Below, piece after piece: positions 9,724 through 19,929 of a stretch of DNA of 24,410 nucleotides (the stretch's first letter is position 1; each line of letters begins with the position of its first letter). Location of the stretch: the IMG/VR virus record IMGVR_UViG_3300044491_000021, positions 1-24,410 of that record; one strand, written 5' to 3'. Under the pieces are notes generated by a model. That model ran no database searches and had not been told where the DNA came from. It saw only the letters and a list, made by a program, of their open reading frames with translations. The DNA comes from a virus. The translations under genes and the position numbers were made by a program.

Positions 9724-11142
9724 ATGGCAAATAAGCAACCAACTATTACTGGTGAGTGGCAGTCTGCACTATTAAAAGTTATGGATTCTCTTGGTGATGA
9801 GAATTATTCATACTTTAATATTGATATTACAAAGACTGCTGACCCTGAAGGTAGAGCATCTATTTACTTTGCGATGAAAGTAATAGTTCCTCGTTCTGAT
9901 AGAACCAGGGCAGCAAGTTTTATTCAAGAAAGTTTGACTAAAAAAGGATTTGCACCTCAAATTAAAAGGAATGGAAATCAGTTAGATATTCCTGTAAAAA
10001 ATAAGTTTATTCGTATTGATATTAAACCAGTTGGTGGTGGATCAGGTGCTGGTGCAAAAGAGACTGCTAGGAATGAGGCAGCACAGTGTTTGTATTGTGC
10101 CCTAGCATTTAATGTTTATCGTGGGAAGATTGATGAAGACATACCTATCAGTGAAGACGCATTCAATCAAGCATTTACTACTATCGATGTTGATGTAAAA
10201 AAAGAAGATCTCTTGGTTCTCTCTCCAGAATGGGTTACATCATCTATTCGTGGAGCAAATGAACTTTGGGATAAATTCCATACATCTGGTAAAACCTATA
10301 GGTTTCATAGAGGCAAAGGTATTGACGACAAAGAAATTAAGAATGCATTTTCTAGGGTAAGATCTCAAACACCATTTTCTTCTGAGGACAAGTGGAATCC
10401 TGCTGACATCTGGATTGTCTCTAATGATTTTAATAAATCAAAATTAAATGATATTGATACCATCGATGCACTGAACCATTTTCTGTTGCAAGAGTATGAT
10501 GCAAATAGATTGATTGGTGTGTCTCTCAAGAAAGTTGAAGGTACTGCTAATCTATCTGAAAAAAATAAAGACCAAGTTGATAAAGCAAACAAGGTTGCTA
10601 ACTATGGTTTTAAAAATGTTGGATTGATTTATAAAAATGCCAGAGGTAAAGATAAGAACCCTATGGACTTGTATTTGTTCTTTGGTACAGGAACATATGA
10701 CAAGTTCCAAGCAAGAAACTTTGGTGGTGCAAACTCTGCTTCTTTCCAGTTAGAACTTAAAGGTTCCTCTGCTAACCAAGGTCGAATTGGTGGTGGTAGT
10801 GTATTCAAAATCCTTGACACTCTCGGTGTTAGTTATAAACCTTTTAACAATCAGACACTTTGGACGCAGTGTGCCCCCAAGAGCGCCCAGCGTGCTACAA
10901 TATCTCAAGAGATATGCGACCTGCTGACCGAGCACAATGCAACAGGACTTCCAAAGAACTGCACCCAAGTCATTGGTGAGATCGCAAACATGGGTCAGTC
11001 TTACAGGTACAGTAAACTTCTTGGTTTGAGACTGCTAGATGCTATCAAAAAGTCTGGCAAAGCAGATGAGATTATGCGAGAGCTCTATTTGTATGGAGCA
11101 TCACAAAGTAAAAAATCTGGGTTCTATCTCAAACTAGAGTAA
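9724..11142 (+). CDS. Large conserved-type phage protein with a possible PD-(D/E)XK-like nuclease core
   Basis: 472 residues, no certain family. The N-terminal part carries GRASIYFAMKVIVPRSDRTRAASFI and an IKPVGGGSGAGAKETARNEA segment (about 100-120). The central part has KWNPADIWIV with D228, followed 39 residues later by LIGVSLKK (S267, K269). This spacing of a P-x-D strand and an S-x-K strand resembles the active site of PD-(D/E)XK restriction-type nucleases, with Ser in place of the usual Asp/Glu. A C-terminal helical region ends in SGFYLKLE. The Shine-Dalgarno lies in the terminator hairpin. The nuclease call is a hypothesis; it could be structural. Confidence 0.8.
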   Translation: MANKQPTITGEWQSALLKVMDSLGDENYSYFNIDITKTADPEGRASIYFAMKVIVPRSDRTRAASFIQESLTKKGFAPQIKRNGNQLDIPVKNKFIRIDIKPVGGGSGAGAKETARNEAAQCLYCALAFNVYRGKIDEDIPISEDAFNQAFTTIDVDVKKEDLLVLSPEWVTSSIRGANELWDKFHTSGKTYRFHRGKGIDDKEIKNAFSRVRSQTPFSSEDKWNPADIWIVSNDFNKSKLNDIDTIDALNHFLLQEYDANRLIGVSLKKVEGTANLSEKNKDQVDKANKVANYGFKNVGLIYKNARGKDKNPMDLYLFFGTGTYDKFQARNFGGANSASFQLELKGSSANQGRIGGGSVFKILDTLGVSYKPFNNQTLWTQCAPKSAQRATISQEICDLLTEHNATGLPKNCTQVIGEIANMGQSYRYSKLLGLRLLDAIKKSGKADEIMRELYLYGASQSKKSGFYLKLE

Positions 11143-12347
11143 TGGCAAACATCAAACAACTCAAACACCTAGAGCACCTGGAAGATGAGATGCTTAACTA
11201 TGGCGTCGATGGGTGCATGGCGGCAGTTTCTTTTTTGAAAGAATTGAAAAAGATGCTGGGTCACCAAGAGAGTGCTGGTTTTATGCAGACCAAGTGGGAC
11301 GGCGCACCCTCTGTTGTTTGTGGTGTTGATCCTTTGTCTGGTTTGTTTTTTGTTGGTACTAAGTCTGTCTTTAATAAAACAGAACCCAAGACATGTTTTA
11401 CTGAAGAAGCGATTGATGGGTATTACTCTGGAGACCTTGCTGAAAAACTAAAGTTTTCTCTACGCTACTTTAGTAAGTTGGGTATTAAGGGTGTCATTCA
11501 GGGAGACTTGTTATACACAGATTCTACTAGAACAAGAGAGACAGTAAATGGAGAACAACTCTACACATTTCGACCAAACACTATTACTTATGGCATCCCT
11601 ACTGACCACGATATTGGTAAACAAGTTGGGAAATCAAAGATTGGAGTAGTATTTCATACACACTATGTTGGAACTGAGTTAGCAGAGATGCAAGCTCGTG
11701 CTGGTGCTCCTATTCATGAGTTTAATAAAATTCCTGAGGTTGCTGTAATTGATAACGACACACCTATGGATCGTGTTGGATTCTCTAAGGCAGAAATGCA
11801 AAGGTTTGATGGTTACATTTCTAAGATCGAACGTATGTGTCGTATCTGCGGAGACTTTCTTGACGAACTGGTTGGTGCAAGTGGTAGCACTGGTGACGCA
11901 AAGTTTCATATTTCTACTTTCTTGAAACCATACTTTAATGATCAAATTAAAAATGCTCGCAGCATCGGTAACATTGATGAAGCATTGTATGATCTAGCAA
12001 ATTTTTATCATGCTAAAACTAGTAAAGAACTTGCCAAGATTAAGACTGCTGCAAATCTTACTAAGAAGCGTAATCTTGTATACCAGAGCGAAAATTACCT
12101 AGTAGACAATGTGTATAAGTTTAAGGCAATGATTGCTTTGTACAAAGAACTGCAGGCAGTGAAGCAAATGGTTATAGATAAACTGGACCACCTGGAAGAG
12201 TTTAGAACATACGTTCAGACTGATAAAGGATATAAGGTTACGACTCCTGAGGGATATGTTCTGCATAAAGATGGCAGTATGATCAAGTTTGTCAATCGCT
12301 TGGAGTTTGCTTACAATAATTTTACTCTGCAAAAGCAATGGCGTTAG
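11142..12347 (+). CDS. KxDG nucleotidyltransferase-like protein (RNA/DNA ligase superfamily)
   Basis: 401 residues. K51-W-D-G54 in TKWDGAPSVV fits motif I (KxDG) of covalent nucleotidyltransferases, where the lysine is adenylylated. GVIQGDLLY (D122) is a plausible motif III-type strand. EGYVLHKDG starting at E370 and IKFV (K382) fit motifs IV (EGxV) and V. Between them is a long helical insertion (about 200-340) rich in Lys and Glu. All motifs are in the correct order and spacing is broad but possible. The enzyme may ligate, cap or adenylate nucleic acid ends; substrate unknown. It starts one base inside the stop of the previous gene and overlaps the next by 10 nt. Confidence 0.85.
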   Translation: MANIKQLKHLEHLEDEMLNYGVDGCMAAVSFLKELKKMLGHQESAGFMQTKWDGAPSVVCGVDPLSGLFFVGTKSVFNKTEPKTCFTEEAIDGYYSGDLAEKLKFSLRYFSKLGIKGVIQGDLLYTDSTRTRETVNGEQLYTFRPNTITYGIPTDHDIGKQVGKSKIGVVFHTHYVGTELAEMQARAGAPIHEFNKIPEVAVIDNDTPMDRVGFSKAEMQRFDGYISKIERMCRICGDFLDELVGASGSTGDAKFHISTFLKPYFNDQIKNARSIGNIDEALYDLANFYHAKTSKELAKIKTAANLTKKRNLVYQSENYLVDNVYKFKAMIALYKELQAVKQMVIDKLDHLEEFRTYVQTDKGYKVTTPEGYVLHKDGSMIKFVNRLEFAYNNFTLQKQWR

Positions 12348-12901
12348 ACGGAAAGGTTTGTTACTTTACATTTGGTAGGTTCCAACCACCTACTACAGGA
12401 CACAAAGAGAACTTTGATGGCGTGAAGAAAGCAGCAGGTTCTCATGATTATCGTATCTACATTTCCCAGACTGTAGATAAAAAAGGTAGCAACCCTCTCC
12501 CACCAGATCGTAAGAAATATTATATGGATAAGATGTTTCCAGAACATCGTGGTAAAATATTTTCAGGTCCAAGACAACCCGTTGAAATTCTGCAAGATCT
12601 TATGCTGGCGGGATATGATGAGGTTGTCTTTTTAGTAGGTTCTGACAGGGTTTCTGCCATGCAGTTCCTTCATAAATATAATGGAAAAGATTTTTCGTTT
12701 AGAAAAATCGAGATTAAGTCTTCTGGAAGCAGAGATGCTGACGGGGACACTTTTGCTATATCTGGAACAAAGATGAGACGTGCAGCGTTTGCTGGAGACT
12801 TCAAACTTTTTCGTCAAGGTATTCCTAAAGCATTAAATGATAATGATTGTCGCGCTTTGATGTCAGAGATCGTGGCAAATTTGCCTAAAAATTTTAAATG
12901 A
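12338..12901 (+). CDS. HxGH-type nucleotidyltransferase (NMNAT / cytidylyltransferase-like)
   Basis: 187 residues. The N-terminal FGRFQPPTTGH (T19-T20-G21-H22) corresponds to the (H/T)xGH motif of the nucleotidylyltransferase superfamily. VVFLVGSDR (96-104) is the usual central strand, and ISGTKMR (141-147) is the C-terminal ISSTxxR-type motif. Members join a nucleoside triphosphate to a phosphate-containing acceptor, for example ATP plus nicotinamide mononucleotide to give NAD, or CTP plus glycerol phosphate. The acceptor here cannot be told from sequence. It overlaps the KxDG protein by 10 nt and its stop overlaps the following gene as ATGA, so the three enzymes form one operon. Confidence 0.9.
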   Translation: MALDGKVCYFTFGRFQPPTTGHKENFDGVKKAAGSHDYRIYISQTVDKKGSNPLPPDRKKYYMDKMFPEHRGKIFSGPRQPVEILQDLMLAGYDEVVFLVGSDRVSAMQFLHKYNGKDFSFRKIEIKSSGSRDADGDTFAISGTKMRRAAFAGDFKLFRQGIPKALNDNDCRALMSEIVANLPKNFK

Positions 12902-13152
12902 AAGATTTTAAGAAATTAAGAGAAGAAGCACTGCGTCAGCAGCAGCGACATACTGAAGTATTCAAAGAAGGTGATGCTGTCATGTCTTCACGTACAGGAG
13001 ACAAAGGACACATTCATAGAGTTGGTGGTAACTATGCTATAGTTATTGCTGAAGAGGGACACATGTTCCGTGAGTGGATTAAGAATATTAGATCTATAAA
13101 TAATACCAGAAGAACTTCCCTGTTAAACGATGAATTACCAGAAGCCAATTAA
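12898..13152 (+). CDS. Small KOW-like protein with a capsid-targeting-like N-terminus
   Basis: 84 residues. The first 11 (MKDFKKLREEA) resemble the capsid-targeting sequence of T4 internal head proteins (consensus close to MKTYQEFIAEA), with an LxE-type site for a prohead protease. The middle, EGDAVMSSRTGDKGHIHRVGGNYAIVIAEEG, has the beta-turn layout of a KOW/SH3-like nucleic-acid-binding barrel. The C-terminus is basic and overlaps the next gene by 23 nt. A TATAAATA box lies in its 3' end. Role in the virion interior is inference. Confidence 0.75.
   Translation: MKDFKKLREEALRQQQRHTEVFKEGDAVMSSRTGDKGHIHRVGGNYAIVIAEEGHMFREWIKNIRSINNTRRTSLLNDELPEAN
13095..13102 (+). promoter_or_regulatory. T4-late-type promoter box TATAAATA
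   Basis: A perfect TATAAATA octamer followed by A lies within the end of the previous gene and 28 bases before the ATG at 13130. In T4 such boxes at -10 are recognised by gp55-directed RNA polymerase late in infection. It would transcribe the lysine-rich proteins that follow. Confidence 0.65.
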
Positions 13153-13744
13153 TAGTGTTAACTCAAATGATTTATTTTCGTCTGGGTTGATGGAACAGTA
13201 TGGCAAGTGGATGGAAGGTGACTGTTTCCAGAATACCGAGATGCCTGAGTTGCACCTATCAGAAGCACCTTTTGATGGTATGGATCCTCAGTCAAATGGT
13301 GCTGAGATCGAAGACACCACTAAGCGTAAGAAGACTGCTAAGAAGGGTGGATATGTCGGTCAAGAGTCTGCACCTAAGAACGAAGAGACTGAAGTTCTTG
13401 AGCGTGAAGAGTATGAGATCGATGGTGAGACTTATGTAATTGAGAAGGCAAAGGGTCTCGATGGTAAGGCTTGCTGGAAGGGATATAAGCTTGCTGGTAC
13501 TAAGAAGAAGGGTGGTAAGACTGTTGACAATTGTGTCAAGGCAGGTGACGAATTAGTCCATGACGGTGAAAAGTTAGACGAGAAGAAGTTAGACGCTGTT
13601 AATCATGCTGAACTTAAGGGTAAGCATTCTGAGCGTAAAGATAAGGATATCGACAATGATGGCGATGTAGATAAGTCTGACAAGTACCTTCACATGCGTC
13701 GTAAGAAAGTTTCTAAAATCATTGGAATGAAGGGAAAGAAATGA
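13130..13744 (+). CDS. Lysine-rich, EF-hand-like putative virion protein
   Basis: 204 residues, very rich in Lys, Glu, Asp and Gly. Near the C-terminus DIDNDGDVDKSD (about 178-189) is an EF-hand/dockerin-type calcium loop, followed by KYLHMRRKK. A second recognisable unit, CWKGYKLAGTKKKGGKT with a later Cys, occurs at about 117-140, a type of motif seen in cyanophage structural proteins. The start at 13130 overlaps the previous gene; an ATG at 13190 is an alternative. It overlaps the next gene as ATGA. It may be a prohead core or decoration component, but this is inferred from composition and the late promoter. Confidence 0.8.
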   Translation: MNYQKPINSVNSNDLFSSGLMEQYGKWMEGDCFQNTEMPELHLSEAPFDGMDPQSNGAEIEDTTKRKKTAKKGGYVGQESAPKNEETEVLEREEYEIDGETYVIEKAKGLDGKACWKGYKLAGTKKKGGKTVDNCVKAGDELVHDGEKLDEKKLDAVNHAELKGKHSERKDKDIDNDGDVDKSDKYLHMRRKKVSKIIGMKGKK

Positions 13745-14178
13745 AGACATTTAAACAACTTCGTGAGGAGTGTGGGTGTAAAGATAAAGAACGTAAAGCA
13801 AAAAAGAAGAAGTCTGGTAATGTAGAAATCATGCCTACTGTCAATGATGGACAGAAAGGTATGGTTACTAAACCTACTAATGAGTCTGTATTTGCTGGTA
13901 ATTATGAAGGACCACTCTATGCCCCTCATCCTGATCTAGTCAAGGAGGTAGCACCACCTGGAAAAAAGTACGAAAGGATGGTCAAGCACATAAAGAAAAA
14001 CTATCCGAAAGATAAAGAAGGTATTGCTTATGCTACTGCTTGGAAGCATAAGAACAAGAAAGAATCGTTTGAGGGTGGTGTGCAAAAAGCACGCCGTGAT
14101 CATAGATCTGGCACGCTACTAACCTTCAAACAGTTCTTGTCAAAGTTGACAGACATTTTAGATGAGTGGGAGAAATAA
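13741..14178 (+). CDS. Basic protein with capsid-targeting-like N-terminus, putative internal head protein
   Basis: 145 residues. The start MKTFKQLREE closely resembles the T4 capsid-targeting sequence and is followed by a strongly basic stretch (KDKERKAKKKK). The central GKKYERMVKHIKKNYPKDKE plus IAYATAWKHKNKK is a repeated unit in cyanomyovirus structural proteins as I recall. Near the C-terminus LLTFKQFLSKL repeats the FKQ(L/F) pattern of the N-terminus. The high charge would suit binding to packaged DNA. It is coupled to the previous gene by ATGA, and its stop is part of a late-type box. Confidence 0.78.
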   Translation: MKTFKQLREECGCKDKERKAKKKKSGNVEIMPTVNDGQKGMVTKPTNESVFAGNYEGPLYAPHPDLVKEVAPPGKKYERMVKHIKKNYPKDKEGIAYATAWKHKNKKESFEGGVQKARRDHRSGTLLTFKQFLSKLTDILDEWEK

Positions 14179-14460: not shown

Positions 14461-15147
14461 ATGTCCTTGTATAGTCGTGCTGAAACGCAAGCACAATCAA
14501 TTAAAGTTCTAAACACAACTGAGAAGGCTTCCGTTGCCAAGTATGAATCTGACGGGACCCTTGTAGCACATGACGGTAACACTAATGCTACCGCTGGTGC
14601 TGAAGGTAATGCTGCCATTCAAGCAAGAGTTGTCTTCATCGATGATGTTGAGGCAACCCTCGCTGAGAATACTGAGCGTGGTTTAAACGCTCCTGGTTGG
14701 TGGCAGTATACTTCATACACCGATGCTTCTGGCGAAACCCGCCACAAGTGTGTACATCTAGCAGCATTCAAAGATGCTCCTGCTAACACTGCTGATAGTG
14801 ATGATGATGTTGCAGCGGATGTTGCTTCTGCGATCACCATCTCGGCACAACCTGTTGATGTCGGTGCCGCTTCTGATCCATTCACTGGCACCTTTGGTGT
14901 TACTGCGGCAGCTGATGCTGGCACAGTTGAATATCAGTGGCAGCGTCAAACTGCTACCAGCACTCGCTGGGTCAATATTACTGCAACTCTTGATGGTAGC
15001 GTATACAGCGGTCAGACTGGCGCAACTCTTACAATCACTGGCGCTGCTAAGGCAGACCTTGATGGTTATAAGTATCGTGTCAAACTTACTTCCGATGCTG
15101 GTGCTGAGGAAGTCATCTCTACCGCAGCAACTTTAACATTCGCATGA
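14461..15147 (+). CDS. Virion structural protein with C-terminal Ig-like domain
   Basis: 228 residues, rich in Ala, Thr, Ser and Gly as are many capsid or fibre proteins. Residues 1-105 form a domain with VVFIDDVEATLAEN and a WWQYTSYTDASGE segment of unknown fold. A low-complexity acidic linker (about 106-122) follows. Residues 125-228 form an Ig-like domain: ITISAQPVDV, VEYQWQRQ with the core Trp160, ATLTITG and DGYKYRVKL in place of the usual D-x-Y-x-C, so the disulfide is missing. Ig-like domains in T4-like phages (for example Hoc) decorate capsids and help weak surface binding. The preceding late promoter supports a virion role. Confidence 0.85.
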   Translation: MSLYSRAETQAQSIKVLNTTEKASVAKYESDGTLVAHDGNTNATAGAEGNAAIQARVVFIDDVEATLAENTERGLNAPGWWQYTSYTDASGETRHKCVHLAAFKDAPANTADSDDDVAADVASAITISAQPVDVGAASDPFTGTFGVTAAADAGTVEYQWQRQTATSTRWVNITATLDGSVYSGQTGATLTITGAAKADLDGYKYRVKLTSDAGAEEVISTAATLTFA

Positions 15148-15152
15148 TCTGA

Positions 15153-15506
15153 ATGAACTTTGATGAATTGACGCCAGATAACTGGCTCTTCTTTGCTATT
15201 CAAAACTACAATAACCCGTCGTCCGTAACTTATTCAGACTTTGAAGAAGACTTAAAGAGATTTAAGTACATCAAACGACTGCTTAAGAGATATGAGACGA
15301 CGGGTGAACTCAAAACTCATTTGATTTTAAATCATGTGATTGTATTGTATAATGTGTTTGGTGATGCGGCGACTCCGCTGCTTTTTTATAAGACTGAGGC
15401 AACATACTGGCGTCAAATTACTGCCTTTATGTTGTTTCTAAATAGATTACCACCTAATTTTACTGATGCTGACGAAGAATGTCTAAAGAGTCTGAATCTA
15501 ATTTGA
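15153..15506 (+). CDS. Conserved phage protein, 117 aa, function unknown
   Basis: Begins MNFDELTPDNW, with a helical, aromatic-rich body: SDFEEDLKRFKYIKRLLKRYETTGELKTHLILNHVIVLYNVFGDAATPLLFY, then a tryptophan-containing helix and LNRLPPNFTDAD. The pattern of a basic helix, then an ILNH...LYNVFG segment, matches a small family that I recall as widespread in T4-like and other large phages, but I cannot give its function. The ATG follows the previous stop by 6 nt without a clear Shine-Dalgarno. It overlaps the next gene by 28 nt. Confidence 0.8.
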   Translation: MNFDELTPDNWLFFAIQNYNNPSSVTYSDFEEDLKRFKYIKRLLKRYETTGELKTHLILNHVIVLYNVFGDAATPLLFYKTEATYWRQITAFMLFLNRLPPNFTDADEECLKSLNLI

Positions 15507-16198
15507 ATGAGATGGCAAACATTGCTGGATCTGGTGAAGGTCTAGCATTACCACCTGCCTTTGTCTTTGTTAATCCTAAGTCACATCGTAAGTATAAGAA
15601 AGGTAATCAAGATAAAGTTGATGGGCGCACCAAAGGTGCCCGCTCTCTCCTCAATCGTATCCAACGTAGAAAAATGAAAGAACAAACCGAAACTCAAATT
15701 GATGAGGCAATTGTGTCTGACACAGAGAGGGCACAAAAGTCTATTGCTCAAAACAAAAAACTCTCTCGTTCCAAAGATCTTCAGAAGAAGAGAAAGGAAG
15801 CGAAAGAGAAGATGATGAACAAGACAAAAGAGATGGACACTCTTATGAAAGCTCGTCTTTCTGATTTCAAGAAGAAAGAGAAAGATCAGCAGAAAAAAGT
15901 TCAAATGCAAAAAAACTCTGTTGAATTTGAAGGTAATGTTATGATGGAAAATCAAGATGTAATCCAAGTTGCTTTGGATGTTGCAACTTCTGAACTCAAC
16001 CCCGCAGGTGAAGGTTCATTTGCAAAAGTTCAGTTTGGTGATGGTAGCGTCCAAAACCTAGACAATTTTTCTGCTAAGCGTATTGCTGCTTGCTACGCTC
16101 AGTTGGACGACACCCACAAGCAACAGTTTCAATATATGCTCAACAAAGATGCTGCTTCTTATCAGTCAGCACTTGACTTCGCAGTGAGAAATGTCTAA
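15479..16198 (+). CDS. Charged coiled-coil protein, putative virion component
   Basis: 239 residues. After a short N-terminus (MANIAG at residue 12 is an alternative start, ATG 15512), a highly basic region (about 35-65) is followed by a long Lys/Glu/Gln helix at about 75-145, predicted by eye as coiled coil (KKRKEAKEKMMNKTKEMD and KKKEKDQQKKVQ). The C-terminal 90 residues look globular (VIQVALDVATSELNP, FGDGSVQNLDNFSAKRIAACYAQL, FQYMLNKD). It overlaps the previous gene by 28 nt and the next by one base (TAATG). Scaffold, core or internal head protein are all possible. Confidence 0.75.
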   Translation: MSKESESNLNEMANIAGSGEGLALPPAFVFVNPKSHRKYKKGNQDKVDGRTKGARSLLNRIQRRKMKEQTETQIDEAIVSDTERAQKSIAQNKKLSRSKDLQKKRKEAKEKMMNKTKEMDTLMKARLSDFKKKEKDQQKKVQMQKNSVEFEGNVMMENQDVIQVALDVATSELNPAGEGSFAKVQFGDGSVQNLDNFSAKRIAACYAQLDDTHKQQFQYMLNKDAASYQSALDFAVRNV

Positions 16199-17611: not shown

Positions 17612-19929
17612 CAAACGGGCACGGTATCAAAGTAAAGAAGCGTAGTGGCGCTGTGGAGGCGTTGAACCTAGACAAAATCCATAAGATGGTTGAGGAGGCA
17701 TGTGAGGGTCTAGGGAGCGGTGTGAGCGCCTCTCAGGTCGAAATGAACTCTGGTCTCCAGTTCTTCGATGGAATCGAGACAAAGGACATTCAGGAGATTC
17801 TGGTAAGGTCTGCAAGTGATCTTATCAGTCTGGACAATCCTAACTATCAGTTTGTTGCTGCTCGCTTGCTACTGTTCGCAGTTCGCAAGCAAGTCTTCGG
17901 ACCATCATGGGTAGACGGTTACCCCTCTGTCCTTAACCACTGTTACAGTTGTGTTGAGAAGGGTGTGTATGATCGTGAAATTCTTGATAAGTATACATAC
18001 GAAGAGTGGACCAAGATTAATTCTTGGATGGATCACGAACGAGATATGCTGTTCACCTATGCAGGTTTGCGTCAGGTGGTAGATAAGTATTTGGTTCAGG
18101 ATCGTAGTTGTGGTGAGATGTACGAGACTCCTCAGTACATGTATATGATGATTGCTGCCACTCTATTCCAAAATTATCCTAAGGAAACGAGACTGGAGTA
18201 TGTCAGAAAATACTACAACGCAATCAGCAAGCACAAAATCAACATTCCCACACCTATCATGGCAGGAGTGCGAACTCCACTTCGACAATTTGCTAGCTGT
18301 GTTCTTGTTGATTCTGATGACACCCTCGATAGCATCTTTTCTAGTGACATGGCGATTGGCCGCTACGTTGCTCAACGTGCAGGAATCGGTATCAACGCAG
18401 GCAGAATCCGTGGCATCAACAGTAAAATCAGAGGCGGAGAAGTTCAACACACAGGTGTTGTCCCTTTCCTTAAAAAGTTTGAATCGACTGTCAGATGCTG
18501 TACACAGAATGGCATTAGGGGTGGAAGCGCGACTGTACACTTCCCAATCTGGCACCAAGAAATCGAAGACATCCTTGTCTTAAAAAATAACAAAGGTACA
18601 GAGGACAACCGTGTCAGAAAACTCGACTACAGCATTCAAATCAGTAAGATCTTCTACGAAAGATTCATCAACAATGAGGACATTACCCTATTCTCACCTC
18701 ACGATGTCCCAGGTTTGTACGATTCTTTTGGGACTCCTGATTTTGATGATCTCTATAAACGTTATGAATCTGATGGAAGCATTCCAAAGAAGACTATTGG
18801 CGGTCAAGAACTTCTTTTGGACCTCTTGAAAGAACGTGCTGAAACTGGTCGTGTATATATTATGAACATTGACCATTGCAATGAGCACTCATCTTTTAAA
18901 GACAAGGTTTATATGAGTAATCTTTGTCAAGAGATCACGCTTCCTACTAAACCACTTCAGCATATTGATGATGACAATGGAGAGATTGCCCTGTGTATTC
19001 TTTCTGCTGTCAACGTAGGTAAGGTTACTAAGACTGAAGAACTTGAGGAGATTTGTGACCTAGCAGTTCGTGGTCTAGAGGAACTCATTGACTACCAAGA
19101 ATATCCTGTTGAGGCAGCAAAACAAAGCACCCTTAACCGTAGGTCTCTTGGCATTGGTTATATTGGTTTAGCACATTACCTAGCAAAGCAAGGAGAACAC
19201 TACGATGACCCACGAGCATGGCAACTCGTCCACGACTTGTCTGAATCTTTCCAATATTTCTTGCTTAAGTCAAGTAATGCCCTCGCTCAAGAGAAGGGAG
19301 AGTGTGGATATTTTGATCGAACCAAGTATGCAGACGGTATCCTCCCAATCGACACTTATAAGCGTGACATCGATGAGTTCTGTGGAGGAGAATTAAAGCA
19401 TGATTGGGATTCTCTTAGGGCGTCTATCACCACCCACGGTCTTAGGCACTCAACATTGTCCGCTCAGATGCCATCAGAGAGCAGTTCCGTTGTGTCAAAC
19501 GCAACAAATGGAATCGAGCCACCTAGAGCCTTTTTGTCCACTAAAAAAAGCAAAAAGGGACCACTCAAACAGATCGTTCCTCAGTATGGTAGTTTCAAAA
19601 ATAACTACACTCTTCTTTGGGACATGAAGGACAATGATGGTTACATCAAAGTTGTCGCTGCTATGCAGAAATTCTTTGACCAGGCAATTTCTGGTAACTG
19701 GAGTTATAATCCAGAGAACTATGACAACAATGAGGTGCCAGTATCTGTTATGGCAGGTGATTTCTTGAAGACTTACAAGTACGGATGGAAAACTTCTTAT
19801 TATCAAAATACTTATGATCAAAAAGGAGAGGAACCTGTACTAACAGAGGAGAAAAAGGAATCAATCGAAGACCTATTAACACAAATTCTAGAGACCGAGG
19901 AGGACGACTGTGACAGCTGCAAAATTTAG
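17608..19929 (+). CDS. nrdA: Ribonucleotide reductase class Ia, large (alpha) subunit
   Basis: Reduces ribonucleoside diphosphates to deoxyribonucleotides. 773 residues, close to E. coli NrdA. The N-terminal 90 residues form an ATP-cone (KVKKRSGAVEALNLDKIHKMVEEA) for activity regulation. Catalytic residues by family alignment: C231 (RQFASCVL) and C463 (LCILSAVNVG) for the disulfide pair, C440 in SNLCQE with N438 and E442 as the radical site, and the mobile C-terminal pair C768 and C771 in CDSC. Cys spacing at the C-terminus is CxxC rather than the CxxxxC of E. coli. It overlaps nrdB by 20 nt, an arrangement that couples the two subunits. Confidence 0.97.
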   Translation: MTNGHGIKVKKRSGAVEALNLDKIHKMVEEACEGLGSGVSASQVEMNSGLQFFDGIETKDIQEILVRSASDLISLDNPNYQFVAARLLLFAVRKQVFGPSWVDGYPSVLNHCYSCVEKGVYDREILDKYTYEEWTKINSWMDHERDMLFTYAGLRQVVDKYLVQDRSCGEMYETPQYMYMMIAATLFQNYPKETRLEYVRKYYNAISKHKINIPTPIMAGVRTPLRQFASCVLVDSDDTLDSIFSSDMAIGRYVAQRAGIGINAGRIRGINSKIRGGEVQHTGVVPFLKKFESTVRCCTQNGIRGGSATVHFPIWHQEIEDILVLKNNKGTEDNRVRKLDYSIQISKIFYERFINNEDITLFSPHDVPGLYDSFGTPDFDDLYKRYESDGSIPKKTIGGQELLLDLLKERAETGRVYIMNIDHCNEHSSFKDKVYMSNLCQEITLPTKPLQHIDDDNGEIALCILSAVNVGKVTKTEELEEICDLAVRGLEELIDYQEYPVEAAKQSTLNRRSLGIGYIGLAHYLAKQGEHYDDPRAWQLVHDLSESFQYFLLKSSNALAQEKGECGYFDRTKYADGILPIDTYKRDIDEFCGGELKHDWDSLRASITTHGLRHSTLSAQMPSESSSVVSNATNGIEPPRAFLSTKKSKKGPLKQIVPQYGSFKNNYTLLWDMKDNDGYIKVVAAMQKFFDQAISGNWSYNPENYDNNEVPVSVMAGDFLKTYKYGWKTSYYQNTYDQKGEEPVLTEEKKESIEDLLTQILETEEDDCDSCKI

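Follow-up and report, generated by a model that had tools for sequence, protein, structure and literature searches.

A candidate capsid-targeting N-terminus encoded in the split cytidylyltransferase operon of a T4-like marine cyanophage

P1 (84 aa, positions 12898..13152) and P3 (145 aa, 13741..14178) are small proteins encoded on IMGVR_UViG_3300044491_000021, a 24.4-kb fragment (24,410 nucleotides, hereafter the window; the operon features described here lie on the + strand) from a marine T4-like cyanophage (Kyanoviridae), which megablast aligned at 81–84% identity with Sf-CH1b, S-WAM2, S-RSM4 and their relatives. Our analysis suggests, with a probability that we put at roughly 0.6, that P1 and P3 belong to a Kyanoviridae operon supplying proteins packaged into the head, and that P3 is drawn in by its N-terminus, which resembles a capsid-targeting sequence (CTS). 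A preliminary description had attributed T4 capsid-targeting-like starts to both proteins; these are indeed present (MKDFKKLREEA in P1, 12898..12930, with F4, L7, R8, E9, E10 and A11, and MKTFKQLREEC in P3), as is the TFKQFL segment near the C-terminus of P3 (residues 128–133). The two proteins had also been called basic, which holds strongly for P3 (isoelectric point (pI) 9.7, charge about +12.8) and weakly for P1 (pI 9.2, about +1.9). The T4 interpretation itself stands in part: T4-type CTSs appear to be used in this phage family and P3 is a good candidate for an internal head protein, but the processing determinant is missing, residue 8 being R.

In T4 IPIII residues 4 and 7 are responsible for targeting, while residues 8 and 10 allow processing, according to the accessible part of PMC9026906, a review of Black's work. 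The T4 internal proteins (IPs) IPII and IPIII start with MKTYQEFIAEA and IPI with MKTFKEFTST. A start of this type is found in cyanophages on a cytidylyltransferase/NMNAT-like protein (CyT) fused to a C-terminal barrel: all nine fused CyTs from named cyanophages exhibit F-x-x-F-(I/L)-x-E, followed by A in eight (MKKFSAFLNEA in S-SM1, MKKFSAFLSEA in Syn9, MKSFSQFLTET in P-SSM2, MKKFSAFLKEA in P-SSM4, MKGFSNFLIEA in S-H34, MAMRSFLTFLTEA in ACG-2014f, MKNFSSFLTEA in S-CREM2, MRFRQFIIEA in S-SZBM1 and MKSFLQFLKEA in S-SCSM1). Three sets of relatives were used, each limited to its 80 best members (out of 240, 119 and 553, respectively); the environmental CyTs among them yielded 44 distinct N-termini, two of which begin inside the protein and were excluded, and the other 42 all read F-x-x-F-(I/L)-x-E-A, with F3, F6, I/L7, E9 and A10 invariant and positions 4 and 8 variable. 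CyT is listed as a virion protein in S-CREM2 (PMC10665884) and S-SZBM1 (PMC9146016, Table 1) and, in the accessible parts of the respective reports, in S-SM1 (PMC3037559) and S-SCSM1 (PMC9602691; it is also flagged in the sequence record). The accessible part of PMC3037559 mentions also that CyT was not detected in S-PM2 in an earlier study; the S-PM2 CyT, as annotated, has no CTS at its N-terminus. Where T4 gp23 is cut, at FLTE↓A, the major capsid protein reads LLTE↓A in S-CREM2, ILTE↓A in S-SZBM1 and MINE↓A in S-RSM4, and by analogy these are probably cut sites, too; a gp21-type prohead protease is annotated in S-CREM2, S-SZBM1 and S-SCSM1. T4-type capsid-targeting peptides appear to exist in cyanophages, and a literature search, which did not cover subscription papers and checked the neighbouring head-protein and propeptide literature by title, found no paper linking capsid targeting to these phages, its only returns on that subject being the review of Black's work and the SPN3US paper. 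The head scaffold protein (phrog_237 in S-RSM4) starts with MLNEKFEEF(V/A)(T/S)E in S-RSM4 (locus L037, 9292-10443), S-PM2 and Syn1, a start that is among the best CTS-like scores there.

The window carries a split-gene version of the cyanophage CyT operon. Its CyT (187 aa, 12338..12901) starts with MALDGKVCYF and lacks the CTS possessed by the fused homologues elsewhere. The following gene encodes P1 (phrog_4808), which matches the C-terminal part of the cytidyltransferase family phrog_395. The predicted structure of P1 (moderate confidence) is a five-stranded small barrel of the KOW/SH3-like type; the barrel, residues 22–66 (12961..13095), is confidently predicted and shows a weak match to KOW folds (SPT5 KOW3, 2do3; expectation value (E) 4e-3, template-modelling score (TM) 0.52), and residues 1–20 form a low-confidence helix outside it. 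In other phages this barrel is the C-terminal part of the packaged CyT chain. PHROGs (phrog_4808) and several GenBank records label the P1 orthologues as ribonucleotide reductase alpha subunit or NrdB, an assignment that we considered and rejected: the label looks wrong, since the fold and homology of this 84-aa protein are those of a KOW/SH3-like barrel aligning with the CyT C-terminus. Among 51 distinct P1 sequences residue 4 is F in all, residue 7 is L in 48 and Y in 3, and residue 8 is R in 48, so the set of T4 determinants at residues 4, 7, 8 and 10 is incomplete in P1. Some contigs have P1 fused to P2-type modules instead, and these P1-P2 fusions start with MYNFSEY.

P3 (phrog_12887) is the best candidate among the window proteins for an internal head protein, exhibiting, as in T4, a small, basic and diverse body behind a constant N-terminus. 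Its CTS-like segment MKTFKQLREECGC (13741..13779; F4, L7, R8, E9, E10, C11, C13) includes a predicted helix at residues 4–10. Comparison of 63 distinct homologues from 80 loci revealed F or Y at residue 4 in every one and F (46) or L (17, as in the window) at residue 7, with E10, also present in the window, kept in 59 and C11 and C13 in 61 each; two homologues start with MKPFKDFLNEA, in which every T4 determinant is found. The ratio of nonsynonymous to synonymous polymorphism (pN/pS) is lowest at residues 2–13 (0.14 versus 0.20–0.49 elsewhere in P3). Behind this constant segment the central part is swappable, with a DUF6321-like module (as in the window; the name is taken from the annotation of a Sf-CH11 match), a DUF3008 module or none, and the C-terminus carries one of two helices or neither. 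In the window it ends in the helix TFKQFLSKLTDILDEWEK (14122..14175), the second FKQF-type segment, which is replaced or absent in some homologues. The structure prediction, of low confidence (predicted local distance difference test (pLDDT) 58.7), shows a disordered protein except for the N-terminal and C-terminal helices, and the Pfam search with P3 identified no family. The only virion-flagged relative of P3 seen, S-SCSM1_93, shares a module with it (41 of 55 residues in common with a P3 variant) and ends in RTFKEFLEYIE, a recurrence of the C-terminal TFKQFL. S-CREM2 gp155, which occupies P3's place behind CyT, is virion-listed, starts with MSRFEELR and has a VDVMP motif like the VEVMP of P3; the likeness is one of position and of inspection by eye, as the family search found no link between gp155 and P3. 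A scan of seven genomes for the C-terminal FKQF-type pattern, in whose gene calls the stop of S-SCSM1_93 was absent, returned mostly unrelated proteins and one virion-flagged match, S-SCSM1_97.

The motif proposed in the preliminary description, M-K-x-(F/Y)-(K/Q)-x-(F/L)-x-x-E, was searched for in whole gene sets and matched exactly P1 and P3 among the 34 called window genes. It occurs in 2 of 233 S-RSM4 genes, both orthologues of P1 and P3, in 3 of 280 T4 genes (IPII, IPIII and gp61.1), in 1 of 220 in S-SZBM1 and 1 of 291 in S-SCSM1, and in none of the 224, 256 and 228 genes of S-CREM2, S-PM2 and Syn1, respectively. Because this motif had been drawn in part from P1 and P3 themselves, a fairer measure is an independent profile built from the T4 internal proteins and from cyanophage proteins of lineages other than the window's, whose scores are circular for its training sources (S-CREM2, S-SZBM1 and T4) and independent for S-RSM4, S-PM2, Syn1 and the window. 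The profile ranked P3 first and P1 second of the 34 window genes, and the S-RSM4 orthologue of P3 (MKTFKQFREEC) second of 233 (P 0.00026). This value, together with F or Y at residue 4 in all homologues, places P3 above chance.

CTS matches go well with virion presence in S-CREM2. There, the strict T4-derived pattern, scanned with alternative starts allowed, identified 4 of 224 proteins, namely the kinase (open reading frame (ORF) 14), the S-adenosylmethionine (SAM) hydrolase ORF6, CyT (ORF154) and ORF136, each of which is among the 52 proteins listed for the virion (hypergeometric P 0.0023); with L allowed at the first position ORF13, likewise virion-listed, is added. A tighter pattern applied to three phages gave seven matches, five of them virion-listed (P 0.0028), and both misses are MK(S/T)FK-x-F-(L/M)-SES proteins. 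For these counts our gene calls recovered 50 of the 52 S-CREM2 and 47 of the 48 S-SCSM1 virion entries (48 being flagged in the S-SCSM1 record versus 45 in the paper text), and the S-SZBM1 virion rate, 30/220, is the size of the published table over our own gene count. For S-CREM1, 14 virion proteins are reported in the accessible part of the paper. In S-CREM2, ORFs 12–15 (locus L016, 7704-13331) lie together, and their products are virion-listed and have CTS-like starts: the Cas9-annotated nuclease ORF12 has RFASFMAEA at residues 18–26, and ORF13, the kinase and ORF15 start with MKDLHSFLTE, MKRFDAFLTE and MNFSEFNES, respectively.

Several observations weigh against the proposal that P3 is targeted by its N-terminus within a head-packaging operon, and are best considered together with the explanations that they favor. 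Taken alone, the window N-termini are only mildly unusual: P3 and P1 each reach only P of about 0.011 against shuffled N-termini, a level that about 0.4 of the 34 genes would be expected to attain. Only one of the five strict matches in S-SCSM1, CyT, is virion-flagged (P 0.59), and three of the four unflagged ones start at alternative codons; the CTS rule therefore works well in S-CREM2 (4/4) and is uncertain in S-SCSM1. Moreover, the best P3-like N-termini elsewhere, MKSFKSFLSES of S-SZBM1_191 (locus L006, 32312-32629; it matches phrog_1742) and MKTFKQFMSES of S-SCSM1_30 (locus L305, 44215-44535; it resembles S-SZBM1_191 by eye), belong to proteins absent from the virion lists. Small phage proteins could acquire starts that are short, amphipathic and enriched in K, F, L and E without any meaning, and several of the strict S-SCSM1 matches are indeed unrelated proteins; such a coincidence is nevertheless the hardest explanation to credit in the face of the family-wide conservation of P3, its members with canonical starts, the score of the S-RSM4 orthologue, and the genuine CTS that the CyT of this operon carries elsewhere. 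The virion lists examined, among which Table S8 of S-PM2 was not included, contain neither a P1 nor a P3 from the lineage of the window, and carry-over of non-structural proteins during purification is allowed for by the authors of the S-CREM2 study (PMC10665884) and, in the accessible part of their text, by those of the S-SCSM1 study (PMC9602691). With the virion listing of homologues explained by such carry-over, P1–P3 might function inside the host during infection, perhaps in replication or in nucleotide metabolism, as the neighborhood of gp41, MazG, gp61 and NrdAB would suit, with the primase and ribonucleotide reductase genes adjoining. We consider this improbable, as four phages have CyT among their listed virion proteins, and as the virion proteins of S-CREM2 are enriched in CTS matches.

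The remaining objections concern the N-termini themselves. In P1 residue 10 is not conserved (E in 35, Q in 13, V in 2 and K in 1 of the 51 sequences; it is K in the S-PM2 protein, which starts with MKDFREIKNKA), and the first residues align, without gaps except in one row, with the linker between CyT and barrel in the fused proteins (WEYAPKLD...FRD). Hence the N-terminus of P1 may be just the old linker, and the resemblance a relic of splitting, made of a diverged linker and the low-confidence lead helix, in a protein whose partner would be CyT or nucleic acid and whose N-terminus would have no part in targeting. For P1 the odds of this explanation are about even: the identity to the linker is low over the 11 residues, and F4 and L/Y7 are kept in all 51 distinct sequences, including the P1-P2 fusions. 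An equation of the LRE of P1 with the LREAY helix of fused CyT was dropped, as the ungapped alignment puts P1 residues 12–22 there. In P3 residue 8 is R in 56 of the 63 homologues, as in the window, and L in only two, and the virion-flagged S-SCSM1_93 has the C-terminal motif and no N-terminal CTS. P3 could enter the head via the C-terminal FKQF helix, the best-predicted part of the protein, or via its lysine-rich body, the N-terminus serving another role, such as metal binding by the well-conserved CGC pair. This seems unlikely, albeit less so than action in the infected cell: several homologues lack the C-terminal helix or have another segment instead, all 63 carry the N-terminus, and where the other members have the cysteines, the two without them have a complete CTS. 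Cleavage of the N-terminus by gp21 behind residue 9 or 10, as envisaged in the preliminary description, is doubtful for both P1 and P3, because R8 replaces the I/L of T4 and of all CyT signals read. Judging from these sequences, targeting without cleavage is likelier for P3 than targeting with processing.

A scheme consistent with the preferred explanation, N-terminal targeting of P3, may be outlined as follows. In most cyanophages read, the packaged CyT is a single chain in which the CTS (F-x-x-F-[IL]-x-E↓A) precedes the CyT domain and the KOW/SH3-like barrel, with lysine-rich modular proteins encoded after it. In the window lineage this chain is split: CyT has lost its CTS, the barrel makes up a protein of its own, P1, and P2 and P3 represent the modular proteins. 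The CTS-like N-terminal helix of P3 retains the targeting half (F4, F/L7), with R substituted in the processing half (I/L8), and it would bring P3 into the prohead core, possibly aided by the C-terminal FKQF helix as a second core contact. P3 would remain in the head, its N-terminus probably uncleaved or inefficiently cut, bind DNA through the lysine-rich disordered body and perhaps exit together with the DNA; P1 may enter likewise or by binding a partner. In this lineage P1 and P3 would then be packaged by means of the N-terminus and injected into the host, and a role in DNA protection or counter-defence, as had been suggested, perhaps an IPI-like anti-restriction function, is possible.

P2 (204 aa, 13130..13744, pI 6.0; phrog_4359, with a DUF7201 match), encoded between P1 and P3, is also modular, with a CW-GYK...GTKKKGGK...NCV module and an EF-hand-like one, and it shares phrog_4359 with the virion-listed S-SZBM1_139. 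Its residues 173–184, DIDNDGDVDKSD (13646..13681), fit the spacing of an EF-hand loop. The segment FSSGLME (residues 16–22, 13175..13195) is FSQALIE in S-PM2, FSRALIE in Syn1 and FSSGLME in S-RSM4, and F-S-x-x-L-(M/I)-E is kept in all four P2 homologues compared; speculatively, it could be a further targeting or processing site. The proteins encoded behind CyT in S-SM1, Syn9, S-SZBM1 and S-SCSM1 (loci L293, 7441-8862; L294, 3911-5500; L009, 8989-10362; and L304, 30062-31624) contain histone H1-like Ala/Lys-rich stretches, and three of the four, S-SZBM1_139 being the exception, an EF-hand-like DxDNDG.

The genes form a forward, mostly overlapping run bounded by helicase/MazG genes and the primase gene, with gp41, MazG, gp61 and NrdAB around it, in the order 472-aa protein, DUF6267 protein, CyT, P1, P2, P3, 67-aa protein and head protein. 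Homologues of several products are virion-listed elsewhere, which supports the placement of the operon in a virion-cargo neighborhood. The 472-aa protein (phrog_1462; 9724..11142) is homologous to the virion-flagged S-SCSM1_90 (32% identity, E 2e-41), and the head protein (phrog_613; 14461..15147) has in the corresponding place of S-SZBM1 the virion-listed S-SZBM1_136, similar in sequence by eye. The DUF6267 protein (401 aa, PF19782; 11142..12347) contains KWDGAP, QGDLL, EGYV and KFVNR, in an order that matches the motifs of nucleic-acid ligases/nucleotidyltransferases; in the five homologues read, KWDGAP or KYDGAP, EGFV/EGYV and K-x-V-(N/D)-R are present in all and QGD/QAD in four. Neither the DUF6267 protein nor CyT had a useful match in PDB sequence searches. 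In the place of window positions 15479-16198, S-SCSM1 and S-CREM2 encode the virion-listed S-SCSM1_97 (locus L304, 33122-33307) and gp160 (locus L005, 10343-11236), which share GFTG-x-x-A-x-x-GP-x-AGYDPLM, like the start of mature gp23; residues 17–70 of gp160 match the major head protein phrog_696. T4 gp61.1 (T4 18966-19130, locus L310) has a CTS-like start, MKTFKEFIKED, and its gene adjoins primase gene 61, just as the cyanophage cargo operon precedes its primase gene.

It is about an even bet that a T4-type signal for export into the head is in general use among Kyanoviridae and loads the capsid with enzymes and modular DNA-binding proteins that are delivered on infection, the window operon being a split-gene form in which the P3 signal is uncleaved; the cargo would comprise cytidylyltransferase/NMNAT and, in S-CREM2, the SAM hydrolase, the APH/ChoK-like kinase, the Cas9-annotated nuclease and a small neighbor. 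Enzymes have been found in cyanophage virions, and in the accessible parts of the proteome papers (PMC10665884, PMC9602691) the choice between cargo and carry-over is left undecided. A readable N-terminal signal on virion enzymes makes this choice directly testable, and it would let head cargo be predicted from genome sequence.

Among the known systems, T4 IPI, IPII and IPIII share with P1 and P3 the N-terminal M-K-x-(F/Y)-x-x-(F/L) helix, and with P3 also a body that is small, basic and modular and follows an N-terminus that stays constant, IPI having the same MKTFK-x-(F/L) start as P3. They differ in I/L8, which is R in P1 and P3, and in the unrelated body; packaging of P1 and P3 is predicted, and their cleavage is doubtful. 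The packaged cyanophage CyT/NMNAT (T4-GC190; S-SM1, S-CREM2, S-SZBM1, S-SCSM1) comes from the same operon, its C-terminal barrel being homologous to P1 and its catalytic domain to the window CyT, but it bears a complete CTS on one long chain, whereas in the window the chain is split and CyT has no CTS. According to the accessible part of PMC5694885, the propeptides of SPN3US gp53 and gp54 have their first 15 residues identical on diverged bodies; the constant N-terminus and diverged body recall the window proteins, while the A-x-E motif, the longer propeptides and the giant phage itself are different. Finally, KOW/Tudor/SH3-like barrels such as SPT5 KOW3 (2do3) resemble P1 residues 22–66 in fold, albeit by a weak match.

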